Shown: positions 24,951 through 32,249 of the stretch, one piece after another
How the letters are laid out: the number at the start of each line of letters is the position of its first letter
Numbering within the stretch: the stretch's first letter is position 1
Assembly: GCF_025363195.1 (NCBI RefSeq)
Contig: NZ_JANYEK010000246.1
Coordinates: 1 to 49,353 of the forward strand
Length of the DNA: 49,353 bases
Source of the DNA: Sphingomonas sp.
GTDB lineage: Bacteria; Pseudomonadota; Alphaproteobacteria; Sphingomonadales; Sphingomonadaceae
Direction: 5' to 3'
Notes under the pieces: generated by a model
The model's input: the letters and a program-made list of their open reading frames with translations, nothing else
Told to the model about the DNA's origin: nothing
The model's database searches: none
Made by a program: the position numbers and the translations under genes

Positions 24951-25525
24951 GGGTAGAGCAAGCCTTCGTCCCAACCCGATGCAGTGCGCGTGAACAGGCG
25001 GCGTTCGTGCAGGCGGTGCGCGCGATCCTGCCAGAATTCGATTGCCGAGGGCGTCACGCGGTAGCCCCCCCAATGTGGCGGGCGCGCCACGTCGCCACCG
25101 GCGAAACGCGCTTCCATTTCGGCAAAGCGCGCCTCGAAGGTTTCACGATCGGCAAGCGGGCGCGATTGGTCCGAGGCCCAGGCACCCAGTTGCGAATCGC
25201 GACTGCGGCTGGAGAAATACGCGTCGGACTCGGCATCGGTCGCCAAGCCGATGGTACCTTCAATCCGTATCTGGCGGCGCAGCGACTTCCAGTGGAACAG
25301 CAATGCAACATCCGGTGCGACCGCCATGTCGCCCGCCTTGCGGCTCTCGCGATTGGTGTAGAAGACGAAGCCGTCCGGCCCATGCCCCTTGAGCAGCACC
25401 ATCCGGGATGACGGTCGCCCGTGGGCATCCACCGTCGCCAGCGCCATCGCGTTGGGGTCGTTCGGCTCGCTTACCTTCGCTTCCGCGAACCAGACGTCGA
25501 ACAGGGCGAAGGGATCGTCAGTCAT
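24947..25525 (-). CDS. pdxH: Pyridoxamine 5'-phosphate oxidase
   Basis: A 192-residue FMN enzyme that oxidises pyridoxamine or pyridoxine 5'-phosphate to pyridoxal phosphate in the salvage and de novo B6 pathways. Family features are PNAMALATVDAHGRPSSRMVLLKG, VFYTNRESRKAGDM, LLFHWKSLRRQIRIEG, the FMN/PLP contact SRDSQLGAWASDQSRPL, and the C-terminal IEFWQ...RLHERRLF with closing GWDEGLLYP. Most homologues are 195-220 residues; this one is at the short end but complete. The ATG at 25525 begins the conserved TDDPFALFDVWF; the much longer upstream frame is not supported. It heads a coupled three-gene operon and is divergent from the ATP-grasp gene across 159 bases. Confidence 0.94.
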   Translation of the reverse strand: MTDDPFALFDVWFAEAKVSEPNDPNAMALATVDAHGRPSSRMVLLKGHGPDGFVFYTNRESRKAGDMAVAPDVALLFHWKSLRRQIRIEGTIGLATDAESDAYFSSRSRDSQLGAWASDQSRPLADRETFEARFAEMEARFAGGDVARPPHWGGYRVTPSAIEFWQDRAHRLHERRLFTRTASGWDEGLLYP

Positions 25526-25684
25526 GATCGCGCTGTAGCGAAGCTTGGCGGTGAACGAAACCTCGTTCCCCGCAGGCCGGGGAACCCTACAAGTTTGCGA
25601 AGTCCCGTGTTGCACCCGCGAAAAGTTTGTGGCCAAGACGGTTGTGGGTGGGAGAATGATCGCAATGGCAGCATTCGAGAATTG

Positions 25685-28168
25685 ATGGCGACTGCAGCCG
25701 CCTCGTCCCTGCTCGATGCAAATACCCATGCGCGACGCTGGATCGCCGACTATTGCCAGCAATATCTACACGGTGACGTATTGTGTGCCGCGCAGGCAGA
25801 CCCCGCCTGGACCGCGGTGTTGGAGGAACTGGCGGCGGTCGCGGGTGATAATCTTGGGCATGCGCGCGAGCGGGCGCAACGCCATGCCGAGGATATCGGC
25901 ACCGGTTTTCGCATCATCGGGGAGAGCGACGAGAGGCCTTGGCCCGTCTCTCCAGTACCACTGCTGATCGAGAGCGACGAATGGGCCCATATCGCCGCCG
26001 GGGTGCGGCAGCGCGCCGAGTTGATGGAGACCTTGCTCGTCGATCTGTACGATCAGGCTCGTTATGTCGAAACCGGACTGATCCCCGCGGCGTTGGTCGG
26101 GGGAAGCCCGTATTTCCTGCGCCCGATGGTCGGCCTGACGCCGCCGGGTGGGTATCACCTGCATTTCATCGCGATGGATCTGGGTCGCGGACCAACCGGC
26201 GAATGGCGCGTACTCGGCGATCATCTGCGCGCCCCCGCCGGGGCCGGGTATGCGCTGGAAAACCGGCTGGCCGTGTCGCGTACACTCGGCGGCCTGCAAT
26301 CGCGGTTGAATGTCGAACGCCACGCGCCGTTCTTCGCCGCTTTCCGCGAAGGCCTCGCCGCCGCGTGCCGTCGCGTCGAGCCGCGTATCGGCCTGCTTAC
26401 ACCGGGGCGCTATTCGGCGAGCTATGCCGAGCAGGCGCATCTCGCGCGCTATCTAGGGCTGTTGCTGGTCGAAGGCGATGACCTCGCGGTGCTGGAGGAC
26501 CGGCTCTACGTTCGCACGATCGGCGGGCTCAAGCGCATCGACGCGATCTGGCATCGCAGCGATCCACGCATGCTCGATCCGCTGGCGTTCGATTCGCATT
26601 CGCGCATTGGCGTGCCCGGGCTGATCGATGCTATGGCGGCCGGCGAAGTCGTCGTCTCCAATGCACCGGGCGCGGGCGTGCTGGAAAGTGCCGCATTCGG
26701 AGCATTCCTGCCGCGCCTCGCCGCAAGGCTGACCGGGCGCGACCTAATCCTGCCCAACATCGCGACCTGGTGGTGCGGGCAGGAAGCCGAGTGCGCACGC
26801 GTCATCGAGGATTTTGAAGCGCTGCTGATCGGCCCGGCGTTTGGAGTCGCCCCGTTGGGCTTGCCGAAGGGGCGACCGGTCCACGGTGCCGATCTGTCGG
26901 CGGAGGAGCGCACCGTCCTCCTCGCCGATCTGAAACGCCGCCCGCAGGATTATGTCGCGCAGGAGATCGTGCGCCTGTCGACCATGCCGGTCGTCGCCGA
27001 CAATGCGTTGGTCGCTCGCCCCTTCACCCTGCGTGTCTTCGCGGCACGCGGCGGCGACGGAAATTGGGTCGTGATGCCCGGTGGCTTCGCGCGGATTGGC
27101 GAAGACAGCGATTCCCGCGCCAGCGTGATGGGCGAAGGCGCGTGGTCCGCCGATGTCGTCATCCACGGGCCACATACGGTCGAGCCCGTCTCGCTGCTGC
27201 CCGCAACCGATTCGGTCCACATCCGTCGCAACCCCGGCACCTTGCCGAGCCGGGTCGCCGACAATGTTTTCTGGCTCGGGCGTTATCTCGAACGCGGCGA
27301 GGCGTTGCTGAATATCATCCGCGTGATGCTGGGCAATTCGATCGACGCGGATGCCGGGGCAGCGCTGAACGCGGCGACGGTGGGCAAGCTCGTCGGGCTG
27401 GTCGTCAACGCCGGCGCGGCTCCGCATCCGGCAAGCCTGCGCCGCACCGACCTGACGCAGTTCGCGCGCACCGCGATGGATGCCGAAACCGACTGGCAGA
27501 GCGTGCGCGAGATCAATCGTCACGCTCGCAGCATCGGTCAAGGATCGCGAGATCGCCTGTCGGCCGACGTCATCCGCCTGCTCGATGCGCCGCACCCGAC
27601 GCGCGGCGGCATGCTCGATCGTGCTGGATCGCTGCAGCGCCGCTACGCCGCTTTGTCGGGCCTGTCGGGCGAGCATATGAGCAGGACCGCATCTTGGCGC
27701 TTCCACGATCTCGGGCGGCGAATCGAACGCGCACTAACCCTGACACGCGCTGTTTGGGCGTTCGGCCTAGGCGGCGCGAGCGCGGACGACCTGTCCACCC
27801 TGCTCGACCTCGCCGACAGCCAGATCAGCTATCGCCAGCGCTATCTGACCGGCATCGCCCGCGTGCCGGTGGTCGATCTGGTCGCACTCGACCCTGGCAA
27901 CCCACGCGCGCTGGCGTTCCAGATCGAGGCGATCTGCGCACACATGAAGGCGCTGCCGGTGCTGGAAGATGACGGCATGGACGAGGCGCAGCAGGCGCAG
28001 GCGACCGTGCTCAACGCGATCATTTGTACCGCGACGGCGGCGGGGCTGGATGCGGACGTTTTGGGCGATATCGAACGCCGGTTGTTCGCCCTGTCGAACG
28101 CGGTGGCGCGCCGGTATTTCCTGCAAGGCGCAGAGCCACTGCGTGCGGCCGGGATGACGTTGGCGTGA
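25685..28168 (+). CDS. Circularly permuted ATP-grasp type 2 protein fused to an alpha-E domain
   Basis: An 827-residue fusion. Residues 1 to about 510 are the circularly permuted ATP-grasp type 2 domain (DUF404/DUF407): LPVSPVPLLIES-like start of the core, LYDQARYVETGLIPAALVGGSPYFLRPMVG, LENRLAVSRTLG, LLTPGRYSASYAEQAHLARYLGLLLVEGDDL, and the ATP-grasp end VARPFTLRVFAARGGDGNWVVMPGGFARI. From about residue 518 (LPSRVADNVFWLGRYLERGE) to the end is an all-helical alpha-E domain (DUF403). The two are usually separate neighbouring genes. ATP-grasp enzymes make amide or related bonds, so a role in peptide ligation or modification is predicted in the literature, but no product is known. ATG at 25685 has no clear ribosome binding site. 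A transglutaminase-like gene follows with a GTGA overlap. Confidence 0.87.
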   Translation: MATAAASSLLDANTHARRWIADYCQQYLHGDVLCAAQADPAWTAVLEELAAVAGDNLGHARERAQRHAEDIGTGFRIIGESDERPWPVSPVPLLIESDEWAHIAAGVRQRAELMETLLVDLYDQARYVETGLIPAALVGGSPYFLRPMVGLTPPGGYHLHFIAMDLGRGPTGEWRVLGDHLRAPAGAGYALENRLAVSRTLGGLQSRLNVERHAPFFAAFREGLAAACRRVEPRIGLLTPGRYSASYAEQAHLARYLGLLLVEGDDLAVLEDRLYVRTIGGLKRIDAIWHRSDPRMLDPLAFDSHSRIGVPGLIDAMAAGEVVVSNAPGAGVLESAAFGAFLPRLAARLTGRDLILPNIATWWCGQEAECARVIEDFEALLIGPAFGVAPLGLPKGRPVHGADLSAEERTVLLADLKRRPQDYVAQEIVRLSTMPVVADNALVARPFTLRVFAARGGDGNWVVMPGGFARIGEDSDSRASVMGEGAWSADVVIHGPHTVEPVSLLPATDSVHIRRNPGTLPSRVADNVFWLGRYLERGEALLNIIRVMLGNSIDADAGAALNAATVGKLVGLVVNAGAAPHPASLRRTDLTQFARTAMDAETDWQSVREINRHARSIGQGSRDRLSADVIRLLDAPHPTRGGMLDRAGSLQRRYAALSGLSGEHMSRTASWRFHDLGRRIERALTLTRAVWAFGLGGASADDLSTLLDLADSQISYRQRYLTGIARVPVVDLVALDPGNPRALAFQIEAICAHMKALPVLEDDGMDEAQQAQATVLNAIICTATAAGLDADVLGDIERRLFALSNAVARRYFLQGAEPLRAAGMTLA

Positions 28169-29055
28169 TCTACGACATCCGCCACGTCACGCGCTTCGAT
28201 TACGGCAATAGCGTGAATTTCGCGCGCTGCAATTTGCGGCTGAAGCCGATTCACTGGTCCGGCCAGACGCTGGAGGACTATCATCTCACTATCTCCCCAT
28301 CCGGCCGTACCTCGCCCGCCCGTGCCGAGGCGGGCCTCGCCAATGTCACCCGGCTGGTGATCGAGGAGCCTGTGCGCCATCTCCTGATCGAAAGTGTGTC
28401 GCGAATCTTGGTCGATCGACGGATCCCGATGCCGTCCGCTGCCGACCCGACGCTAGCCGAGGTCGCCGCACAGGCACGCGCCAGCCGCGACCCTTCGCCT
28501 GCCGGGCCAGCCAATTACCTCTTCCCCTCGCCGCTGATACCGCTCGACCGCGATATCGCAGAATGGTGTGCGATTGATCTCGCGCCCGATCGACCGTGCC
28601 TCGACGCCGCGATCGCGCTAGCGCGGCGCATTCAGGAAGAATTCGAGTTCGATACCGAAGCGACCTTGGTCGATACCAAGCCGCACGACGCCTTCGTCAA
28701 GCGCGGCGGCGTATGCCAGGATTTCGCACAGATCATGATCACCGGCCTGCGTGCCGCCGGGTTGCCCGCCGCTTACGCCTCGGGTTATATCCGCACGATC
28801 CCGCCGCCCGGCGAGGACCGTCTGGTCGGTGCCGATGCCACGCACGCCTGGGTGCTGTTGTGGTGCGGCGACCAGCTCGGCTGGGTCGGTGTTGACCCGA
28901 CCAACGGTATTTGGATGGCAGGCGACCATATCGTCATGGCCATCGGTCGCGATTATGCCGAGATCGCGCCGATCGACGGCATCGTGCTGGGGTCCGGCGC
29001 GCAGAAGATGGAGGTCAGCGTCGATGTTGCGCCATCGGTCCAACCGATCGTCTGA
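28165..29055 (+). CDS. Transglutaminase-like family protein
   Basis: A 296-residue transglutaminase-like (bacterial, N-terminal domain plus core) protein. The N-terminal beta domain begins IYDIRHVTRFDYGNSVNFARCNLRLKP and is characteristic of this bacterial group. The papain-like core has the active-site cysteine in FVKRGGVCQDFAQIM (about residue 191), the histidine in GADATHAWVLLW, and the aspartate in GVDPTN, so the triad is complete. Such enzymes are predicted cysteine peptidases or amidases acting on peptides. The GTG start at 28165 overlaps the stop of the ATP-grasp/alpha-E fusion (GTGA). The fixed gene pairing suggests they act on one substrate, one forming and the other trimming or cross-linking it. 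No signal peptide, so cytoplasmic. Confidence 0.9.
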   Translation: MIYDIRHVTRFDYGNSVNFARCNLRLKPIHWSGQTLEDYHLTISPSGRTSPARAEAGLANVTRLVIEEPVRHLLIESVSRILVDRRIPMPSAADPTLAEVAAQARASRDPSPAGPANYLFPSPLIPLDRDIAEWCAIDLAPDRPCLDAAIALARRIQEEFEFDTEATLVDTKPHDAFVKRGGVCQDFAQIMITGLRAAGLPAAYASGYIRTIPPPGEDRLVGADATHAWVLLWCGDQLGWVGVDPTNGIWMAGDHIVMAIGRDYAEIAPIDGIVLGSGAQKMEVSVDVAPSVQPIV

Positions 29056-31057: not shown

Positions 31058-31881
31058 ATGGATTGATGCAGGGCAAGCGCGGGCTCATCATGGGGCTCGC
31101 GAACGACAAGTCGCGCGCCTGGGGTATCGCGCAGAAGTTGGCCGAACATGGCGCGCAACTTGCGTTTAGTTACCAGGGCGAGGCGCTGGAAAAGCGCGTG
31201 CGACCACTCGCCGCCCAATTGGGTCAGGACTTCCTTATTCCCTGCGACGTATCGGATATGGGTGATCTCGACGCGTGCTTCGCTACGCTGGCCGAACGCT
31301 GGCCGACGATCGATTTCGTGGTCCATGCGATCGGCTTTTCCGACAAGAACGAACTGCGCGGCGGCTATGTCGACACCAGCCTCGATAATTTTCTGATGAC
31401 GATGAACATCAGCGTCTATTCGTTCGTCGCGGTGTGCAAGCGCGCCGCGGCGATGATGACGCCGATCGACCCGGAAACGGGACAAGGCGGCGGATCGCTG
31501 CTCACGCTCAGCTATTATGGCGCGGAAAAGGTTATCCCGCACTATAATGTCATGGGCGTGGCCAAGGCGGCGTTGGAGACCAGCGTGCAATATCTCAGCG
31601 TCGATCTGGGGCGCGACAACATCCGCGTCAACGCGATCTCCGCCGGGCCGATCAAGACGCTCGCCGCTTCGGGCATCGGCGATTTCCGCCTGATCCTGAA
31701 GTGGAACGAGTTAAACTCGCCGCTGAAGCGCAACGTTACGATCGAGGATGTCGGCGGCGCAGGGCTTTATCTATTGAGCGATTTAGCGAGCGGCGTGACC
31801 GGCGAGACGCATCACGTCGATGCGGGTTACAACGTCATCGGTATGAAGGCCGAGGATGCTCCGGATATCGCGTTGGTGTGA
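31054..31881 (+). CDS. fabI: Enoyl-[acyl-carrier-protein] reductase FabI
   Basis: A 275-residue NADH-dependent enoyl-ACP reductase of type II fatty acid synthesis. Catalytic residues are Y154 and Y164 with K171 (Y-x6-K), in LSYYGAEKVIPHYNVMGVAKAALE, aligned with E. coli Y146, Y156 and K163. The nucleotide-binding motif is GLANDKSRAWGIA at 14-26. The C-terminal GLYLLSDLASGVTGETHHVDAGYNVIGM is diagnostic. Triclosan-type inhibitors act on this family. The GTG start overlaps the YihY stop by four bases; the VOC gene start overlaps its own stop (TGATG). It is therefore in the coupled cluster that runs on to aroC, but regulation of the cluster cannot be deduced here. Confidence 0.96.
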   Translation: MNGLMQGKRGLIMGLANDKSRAWGIAQKLAEHGAQLAFSYQGEALEKRVRPLAAQLGQDFLIPCDVSDMGDLDACFATLAERWPTIDFVVHAIGFSDKNELRGGYVDTSLDNFLMTMNISVYSFVAVCKRAAAMMTPIDPETGQGGGSLLTLSYYGAEKVIPHYNVMGVAKAALETSVQYLSVDLGRDNIRVNAISAGPIKTLAASGIGDFRLILKWNELNSPLKRNVTIEDVGGAGLYLLSDLASGVTGETHHVDAGYNVIGMKAEDAPDIALV

Positions 31882-32245
31882 TGATGCTGGCGCTGGACCA
31901 TGTTCAGATCGCCATTCCGGCCAACAGTGAAGTGACGGCGCGCGACTTTTACGGTCGAATTCTAGGGCTGAGCGAGCATGACAAACCAATCGAACTCTTC
32001 GGTCGGGGCGGATGCTGGTTCGATCTTGGATTTCACCAGCTTCATCTCGGCGTTGATGCAGATTTCCGGCCAGCCAAGAAAGCGCATATTGCGCTGACTA
32101 CCGATGCGCTGGACACGTTACGCGTGCGCATCGAAAATGCGGGATTTCCAGTCCATGGCGACGTACCGATCAACGGTCGCCATCGATTCTTTACCGAGGA
32201 TCCATTCGGCAATCGGCTCGAAATTCTACAAATGGATTTTATCGG

Positions 32246-32249
<4 letters not shown>
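31881..32249 (+). CDS. VOC (glyoxalase/bleomycin resistance) family protein
   Basis: A 122-residue single-domain vicinal oxygen chelate protein. The two betaalphabetabetabeta modules are visible: [28 protein letters not shown] with the first metal histidine, then [13 protein letters not shown], and the second half [22 protein letters not shown]...[18 protein letters not shown]. The final glutamate (LEI) and the histidine in GFHQLHLG are likely metal ligands. Members include fosfomycin-modifying and dioxygenase-like proteins; the substrate here is not known. It overlaps fabI by one base and aroC by four (ATGA). The alternative start three bases later is possible. Confidence 0.85.

Follow-up and report, generated by a model that had tools for sequence, protein, structure and literature searches.

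We analysed a 49,353-nucleotide stretch of Sphingomonas sp. DNA (contig NZ_JANYEK010000246.1, here called the window) around two genes that the original prediction had read as an ATP-grasp/Alpha-E fusion and a transglutaminase. The first gene (25685-28168, + strand; ATG start, stop codon TGA at 28166-28168) encodes an 827-amino acid protein, on whose single frame Pfam places a circularly permuted (CP) ATP-grasp domain, CP_ATPgrasp_2, at residues 92-471 (25958-27097; E 9e-127) and an all-helical Alpha-E domain at residues 520-812 (27242-28120; E 4.9e-54). The scores exceed the family cut-offs (423.5 bits against 32 for PF14403, CP ATP-grasp type 2; 184.5 bits against 20.8 for PF04168, Alpha-E), and both Alpha-E ER motifs are present (E536-R537, 27290-27295; E681-R682, 27725-27730). 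A search of NCBIfam was without match. The second gene (28165-29055, + strand; GTG start at 28165-28167) overlaps the stop codon of the first by four bases and encodes a 296-amino acid transglutaminase-like protein with Bact_transglu_N (1.2e-15) and Transglut_core (1.8e-15) domains. It belongs to the transglutaminase-like superfamily (PF01841), and Cys184, His227 and Asp244 of the catalytic triad are all present (codons 28714-28716, 28843-28845 and 28894-28896, + strand). The fusion, the overlap and the triad are therefore as first described.

We interrogated the ATP-grasp active site by aligning (MAFFT) 146 unique fused proteins with 46 proteins of the split form, in which ATP-grasp and Alpha-E are separate genes. 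The fused set combines 66 proteins from chosen genomes with the 80 closest scan matches, mostly from Alphaproteobacteria; duplicates were collapsed to a single row, and proteins below 700 amino acids were dropped, as were those without an Alpha-E match in the set of 66. The split set comprises the rows of at least 381 amino acids in the fetched loci. The E-x-N motif is complete in 46/46 split proteins and in 0/146 fused ones, where the Glu persists in three and the Asn in none (Arg in 110, His in 29), so that the position now reads mostly [GAS]-D-[RH]. In the window it is G-D-H at residues 178-180 (26216-26224, + strand), in place of the E-D-N of the split paralogues. The Lys and glycine-rich loop motif (K..xxGGYG in split paralogues; residues 383-392, 26831-26860, + strand) shows the same division, present in 46/46 split and 0/146 fused proteins. 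A third active-site stretch, GSLVVNSSQGGGxK in the split form, is mostly lost in the fused lineage; in the window it corresponds to residues 476-489 (27110-27151, + strand), with G485 kept, and is putatively the second active-site loop. All 46 split proteins, by contrast, retain the Asp, the Arg, E-D-N, the Lys, the GGYG loop and the C-terminal NSSQGGG-type stretch. The E-x-N and loop motifs are both absent also from one Acidobacteriota and one Actinomycetota fused member. Judged by alignment, the window protein lacks the E-x-N and Lys/glycine-loop residues expected of an active ATP-grasp carboxylate-amine ligase; it is a member of the family by descent and would not be an active ligase.

Among 103 columns that are invariant in the split proteins, 42 remain at 90% or above in the fused ones (including W100, R110, D120, R194, E249, D266, D298, R450 and D490, window numbering) and 28 drop below 10% (including E161, N163, K368, G374, G375, Y376 and N460-S461-S462, split numbering). 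The fused proteins also have a signature of their own, TWWCG at residues 361-365 (26765-26779), which is near-invariant (W363 and G365 at 0.99); split proteins share its Thr and Cys, and 27/46 have the first Trp.

The functional meaning of the Glu and Asn in E-x-N comes from structural relatives. Located in its sequence, D318, E330, N332 and K533 of Escherichia coli GspS match the ATP-grasp motif residues in order and spacing. In the fungal enzyme Cp1B, the adenosine is ringed by R139, D141, E163 and N165, and replacing these with alanine abolishes or significantly attenuates activity (PMC12568646). An AlphaFold2 model of the fused protein (mean predicted local distance difference test score, pLDDT, 87.4; predicted template modelling score 0.84) places 3n6x as the nearest solved fold to the ATP-grasp part (Z 40.9 over 441 residues, 29% identity, spanning residues 27-495). 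Further matches at Z of about 20-25 are glutathione synthetases, YgiC/YjfC, trypanothione synthetase, GspS and Cp1B (9cjn, Z 21.8).

The fused gene is under purifying selection. Against seven Sphingomonas loci, the ratio of nonsynonymous to synonymous substitution (dN/dS; our own NG86 script) is 0.16-0.28 overall, 0.17-0.26 in the ATP-grasp domain that has lost its site and 0.16-0.28 in Alpha-E, with dS at 0.6-1.1 and hence moderately saturated. The ER motifs of Alpha-E are likewise kept, with E536 in 143/146, R537 in 145/146, E681 in 144/146 and R682 in 146/146 fused proteins. Modelled alone, Alpha-E (pLDDT 88.9) gave no Foldseek match at E <= 0.001, and its best Z of 10.4 over 112 residues lies in the range of chance helical matches and excludes no family.

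The genome that carries the window also encodes, on another contig (C236), a split trio of CP ATP-grasp, Alpha-E and another transglutaminase (locus L081, 8621-11911) with its ATP-grasp active-site residues intact; the next long open reading frame (ORF) lies on the opposite strand, and no gene for the proteasome-like protein Anbu was found there. We then counted the two forms across genomes. Of the 147 genomes surveyed within the order, Alpha-E occurs in 57 and a long fused frame in 14, each of which carries the split form too; weak further matches in G091 (21.6 bits) and G014 (a contig-end fragment) are left out of the fused count. The 80 genomes with just one Alpha-E match, which are all those of this type surveyed outside the order, yielded no fused frame free of interruption; four of their matches span both domains across a stop codon and were read as split pairs. 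In G295 and G230, fragments at contig ends may belong to fused genes, and each of these genomes has the split form as well. These are fairer tests of co-occurrence than our set of 59 genomes of the phylum, in which 58 carry both forms and the 59th two split copies: that set was chosen for at least two Alpha-E matches (58 further such genomes stand outside the count), so its figure is partly a product of selection. Wherever a genome was examined for both forms, no fused gene was met without the split ligase.

Trees of the ATP-grasp (46 fused, 46 split) and Alpha-E domains (46 fused, 49 split) each place the two forms on either side of one branch (Shimodaira-Hasegawa-like approximate likelihood ratio support 100). 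These were built in quick mode without bootstrap from 46 fused rows chosen among the 146, with loop columns removed and E-x-N columns kept in the ATP-grasp tree; L122 and L123 sit on long branches. Fusion and divergence thus seem to trace to a single ancient event, provided that the root does not fall inside one of the groups, and the trees argue that the fused form is a separate lineage, a paralogue, and not a split pair that was joined. The fused form is not rare: at least 583 contig stretches encode a relative, all 80 that were kept hold a long fused frame, and single records from Acidobacteriota and Actinomycetota bring the total to three phyla. The fusion itself is common; what deserves attention is that the active site has been lost uniformly.

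The pairing with a transglutaminase, whose absence had been named in advance as a second result that would count against the prediction, holds throughout the sample. A same-strand transglutaminase ORF ending 600-1300 nucleotides past the fused gene, our definition of downstream, is found at 145/146 fused loci, and at the remaining one (L086) the transglutaminase begins after a gap of about 880 nucleotides. The paired small transglutaminases retain the catalytic Cys in 145/145, the His in 145/145 and the Asp in 144/145 (one gap). The closest solved relatives of the window enzyme by sequence are 6g49 (E 1.4e-9), a protein-glutamine gamma-glutamyltransferase that we take to be TgpA, and 3isr (E 1.3e-6); both matches are limited to about 100 core residues, and the sequence fits cross-linking and peptidase activity alike. 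The same genome encodes one more protein with a transglutaminase domain, truncated at the end of the 4.5-kb contig C45 (L082, 3-791, minus strand); neither ATP-grasp nor Alpha-E has a match on that contig.

A second, large transglutaminase-bearing ORF is present at 75/146 fused loci, usually in the order large transglutaminase, fused gene, small transglutaminase. It is missing from 31 loci with room for it, and the other 40 are too short to score, 30 genomes being represented by short loci. Loci without it include the window, eight same-genus loci from our genome set and fourteen Sphingomonas/Stakelama-type loci; the fused locus of S. jatrophae (L153) does have one. Immediately after the catalytic Cys, the large transglutaminases have Arg (75/75) and the small ones Gln (145/145), possibly a specificity switch. 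We also searched for DUF2126 (PF09899), which found no match in the window's own genome (assembly 88% complete). Of the eight further genomes in the genus that carry a fused gene, one has a match, on another contig, and seven gave none. Four genomes from other genera of the family have DUF2126 beside the fused gene; in G002, a DUF2126 match immediately upstream of the fused gene (L068, 3721-6171) is broken by a TAG codon.

The gene order in the window is PhzF, cation efflux, PdxH, the fused gene, the transglutaminase, DnaJ, BrkB-like, FabI, AroC and PurA. The closest named relatives of the fused protein among the matches listed are from Sphingomonas (84% identity to S. hylomeconis), and the same neighbour set recurs in S. 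parapaucimobilis, where the record (395 kb) is classed as a plasmid. A 182-amino acid ORF between FabI and AroC (31701-32249) has no Pfam match at E 1e-5; the S. parapaucimobilis gene at its position is annotated as an N-acetyltransferase. Upstream of the fused gene, positions 25525-25684 hold no block conserved among nine loci, the window included; a shared operator or short peptide gene is thus not in evidence there, and no systematic short-peptide search across the 146 loci was made. Matches to what we presume to be a sigma-54-type consensus occur in the window at chance level (87 found, 88.6 expected), none of those listed in 25525-25684. Beside the fused gene in the window there is no proteasome-like gene, and the neighbours at the locus bear out its reported absence. 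The genome itself, 88% complete as assembled, has one PF00227 match, read as HslV from its strong score; all nine genus genomes searched have a single strong match of this kind, likewise read as HslV, and none has an Anbu-like one. Weaker PF00227 matches adjoin the split cluster in G105, G110, G146 and G311.

These observations (loss of the site, conservation elsewhere, purifying selection, the clean split from an active paralogue, the transglutaminase neighbour and coexistence with the split trio) are what we set out to explain. ATP-handling residues have been lost beside an intact transglutaminase active site, and the ligase look-alike therefore probably aids an enzyme instead of being one. 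On balance, we favour the reading that the fused protein is a retained pseudo-ligase, partner to both the transglutaminase and the intact split ligase in a substrate-binding or regulatory role. Its ATP-grasp fold, of the glutathione-synthetase/glutathionylspermidine-synthetase type, would have given up ATP catalysis long ago while staying joined to an Alpha-E helical domain with its own conserved motifs. The split ATP-grasp and Alpha-E proteins would spend ATP making an amide-linked peptide product; the fused pseudo-ligase would bind such a peptide, or an acceptor, in the old substrate cleft and present the peptide to the paired transglutaminase-like thiol enzyme, which may make, move, trim, attach or cut an amide bond without ATP. 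The whole would be a two-part peptide-modifying system, in which we infer that the peptide is bound, that a complex forms and which way the reaction runs. More tentatively, and as a possibility to which we lend limited credence, the peptide-ligase fold may, in this whole three-phylum lineage, have become an ATP-independent carrier or template from which the regularly paired transglutaminase receives a peptide, in a form free of DUF2126 in Sphingomonas. Without a DUF2126 protein, the amide chemistry at the Sphingomonas locus would be pure transamidation or hydrolysis.

Several points weigh against a retained pseudo-ligase, and some of them favour another enzyme. We infer the dead site from alignment, and the residue mapping to E. 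coli GspS uses motif spacing and an overall structural alignment only, since a profile comparison gave no sequence match; beyond these, the mapping draws on the Cp1B paper. Most fused loci, the window included, have no split cluster in the fetched stretch (a split ATP-grasp lies within that of 16/146, 104 of the 146 loci being at least 12 kb), so a physical complex is not implied, and the co-occurrence counts above stand apart from the 80 named scan genomes and the plasmid records. We found no biochemistry on fused members in the literature searched, and in one study pull-downs among the proteins of the Yersinia bercovieri Anbu operon, baited with Anbu, detected no specific interactions (PMC6376114). 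D165 is kept in 133/146 fused proteins and is Glu in the others, and R168 (142/146), R450 (145/146) and D490 (145/146) are retained; these residues could still hold a nucleotide. The fused protein may then be an active non-canonical nucleotide enzyme with rebuilt loops, performing another reaction such as nucleotide transfer, or a sensor. Position 180, Arg or His in 139/146, looks constrained and not drifting, in keeping with such an enzyme. The Lys and glycine-rich loop motif is nonetheless missing in all 146, and two of the three Mg ligands of GspS are replaced; we consider this explanation unlikely. A functionless, decaying gene would also account for the lost catalytic residues, but the selection test speaks against it, as do the single lineage, the conserved residues and the transglutaminase pairing, and we give it almost no credence.

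The original prediction took the fusion to be an ATP-dependent amide ligase, self-sufficient with the transglutaminase, in a trio that makes or trims a peptide. Strong family membership and a fold of peptide-amine ligases agree with this, and the Y. bercovieri Anbu operon encodes an ATP-grasp protein that, with no substrate known, does release phosphate from ATP (PMC6376114). However, the loss of metal and ATP residues on careful alignment, named in advance as the result that would count against a ligase, is what we found in all 146 fused proteins, and the same genome encodes a separate pair with the motif residues intact. We regard such a ligase as very improbable. Nor does the fusion appear to fix the stoichiometry of an otherwise split enzyme, the fused form being a lineage of its own that occurs alongside the split pair; the fusion, overlap, triad, pairing and missing proteasome partner stand, and the ATP-ligase role and the stoichiometry argument do not. 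Alternatively, the partner ligase could be the large transglutaminase together with a DUF2126 protein, which we take to be a glutamine-synthetase-like amidoligase, the fused protein being mainly its accessory subunit and a remnant of the system being left in Sphingomonas. The large ORF at about half of the loci and the DUF2126 genes beside the fused gene in other genera of the family fit this arrangement. Against it stand the lack of DUF2126 matches in the window's genome and in seven of the eight others of the genus with a fused gene, the loci with room but no large ORF (with the qualification that L068 has the TAG-interrupted DUF2126 and that an 887-amino acid transglutaminase ORF at L090 may be one), and continuing purifying selection on the fused gene in Sphingomonas. 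We think it improbable.

If the fused lineage is indeed a pseudo-ligase, the annotation matters: the name "ATP-grasp" invites ATP-driven ligation assays of the fused gene, and these would fail for the wrong reason. The substrate of the system would be better sought through the split enzyme and the transglutaminase, with the fused protein as bait. Already known are the trio, the role predicted for it and the naming of the fused gene in public records, three of which have "circularly permuted type 2 ATP-grasp protein"; PMC5666114 and PMC6376114 credit the first two to Iyer et al. 2009. What appears to be new is that the sampled fused lineage uniformly lacks the ATP-grasp site yet keeps its transglutaminase pairing, with Iyer et al. 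2009 known to us through these citing papers. Among the papers listed and in the portions available, our literature searches met no study recognisable as one of the fused lineage or of the lost site, and PMC12239564, PMC12096838, PMC10318531, PMC3597751, PMC8407117 and PMC13207237 hold nothing that bears on the fused protein.

A link to nitrogen status has been described for split-type clusters: such a cluster is NtrC- and sigma-54-dependent in Burkholderia cenocepacia (PMC5491218) and is raised with nitrate relative to ammonium in Pseudomonas putida (PMC8050072); in Bradyrhizobium, a CP_ATPgrasp_1 gene is among those with a predicted RpoN site (PMC13207237). In a B. cenocepacia record of our own set (L224, 6572-17557), split ATP-grasp, Alpha-E, transglutaminase, large transglutaminase, fused gene and transglutaminase form six co-directional genes, in a region where the record's own table has no gene. 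The regulon paper, on a different strain, names I35_5080-83 and, in the text available, not the fused gene; judged by product, these four genes would fit the first four of the L224 order (PMC5491218).

Compared with known systems, the window pair has the same three domain families as the split CP ATP-grasp/Alpha-E/transglutaminase trio of the Anbu-operon type. Each form has its own transglutaminase, and the Alpha-E ER motifs are common to both; the window differs in that ATP-grasp and Alpha-E are one gene, the ATP-grasp site is lost, no Anbu was found and the lineage is separate. Clusters of large transglutaminase with DUF2126, fused gene and small transglutaminase share the last two genes with the window, whose genome gave no DUF2126. 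Eukaryotic glutathione synthetases, E. coli GspS, YgiC/YjfC and trypanothione synthetase, active ligases all, share the overall fold at 7-13% identity, as does Cp1B, also an active ligase (PMC12568646). The closest solved fold, Mfla_0391 of Methylobacillus flagellatus (3n6x, a putative glutathionylspermidine synthase), differs from the fused protein in carrying the split-type E-D-N and K..GSGGYG motifs.

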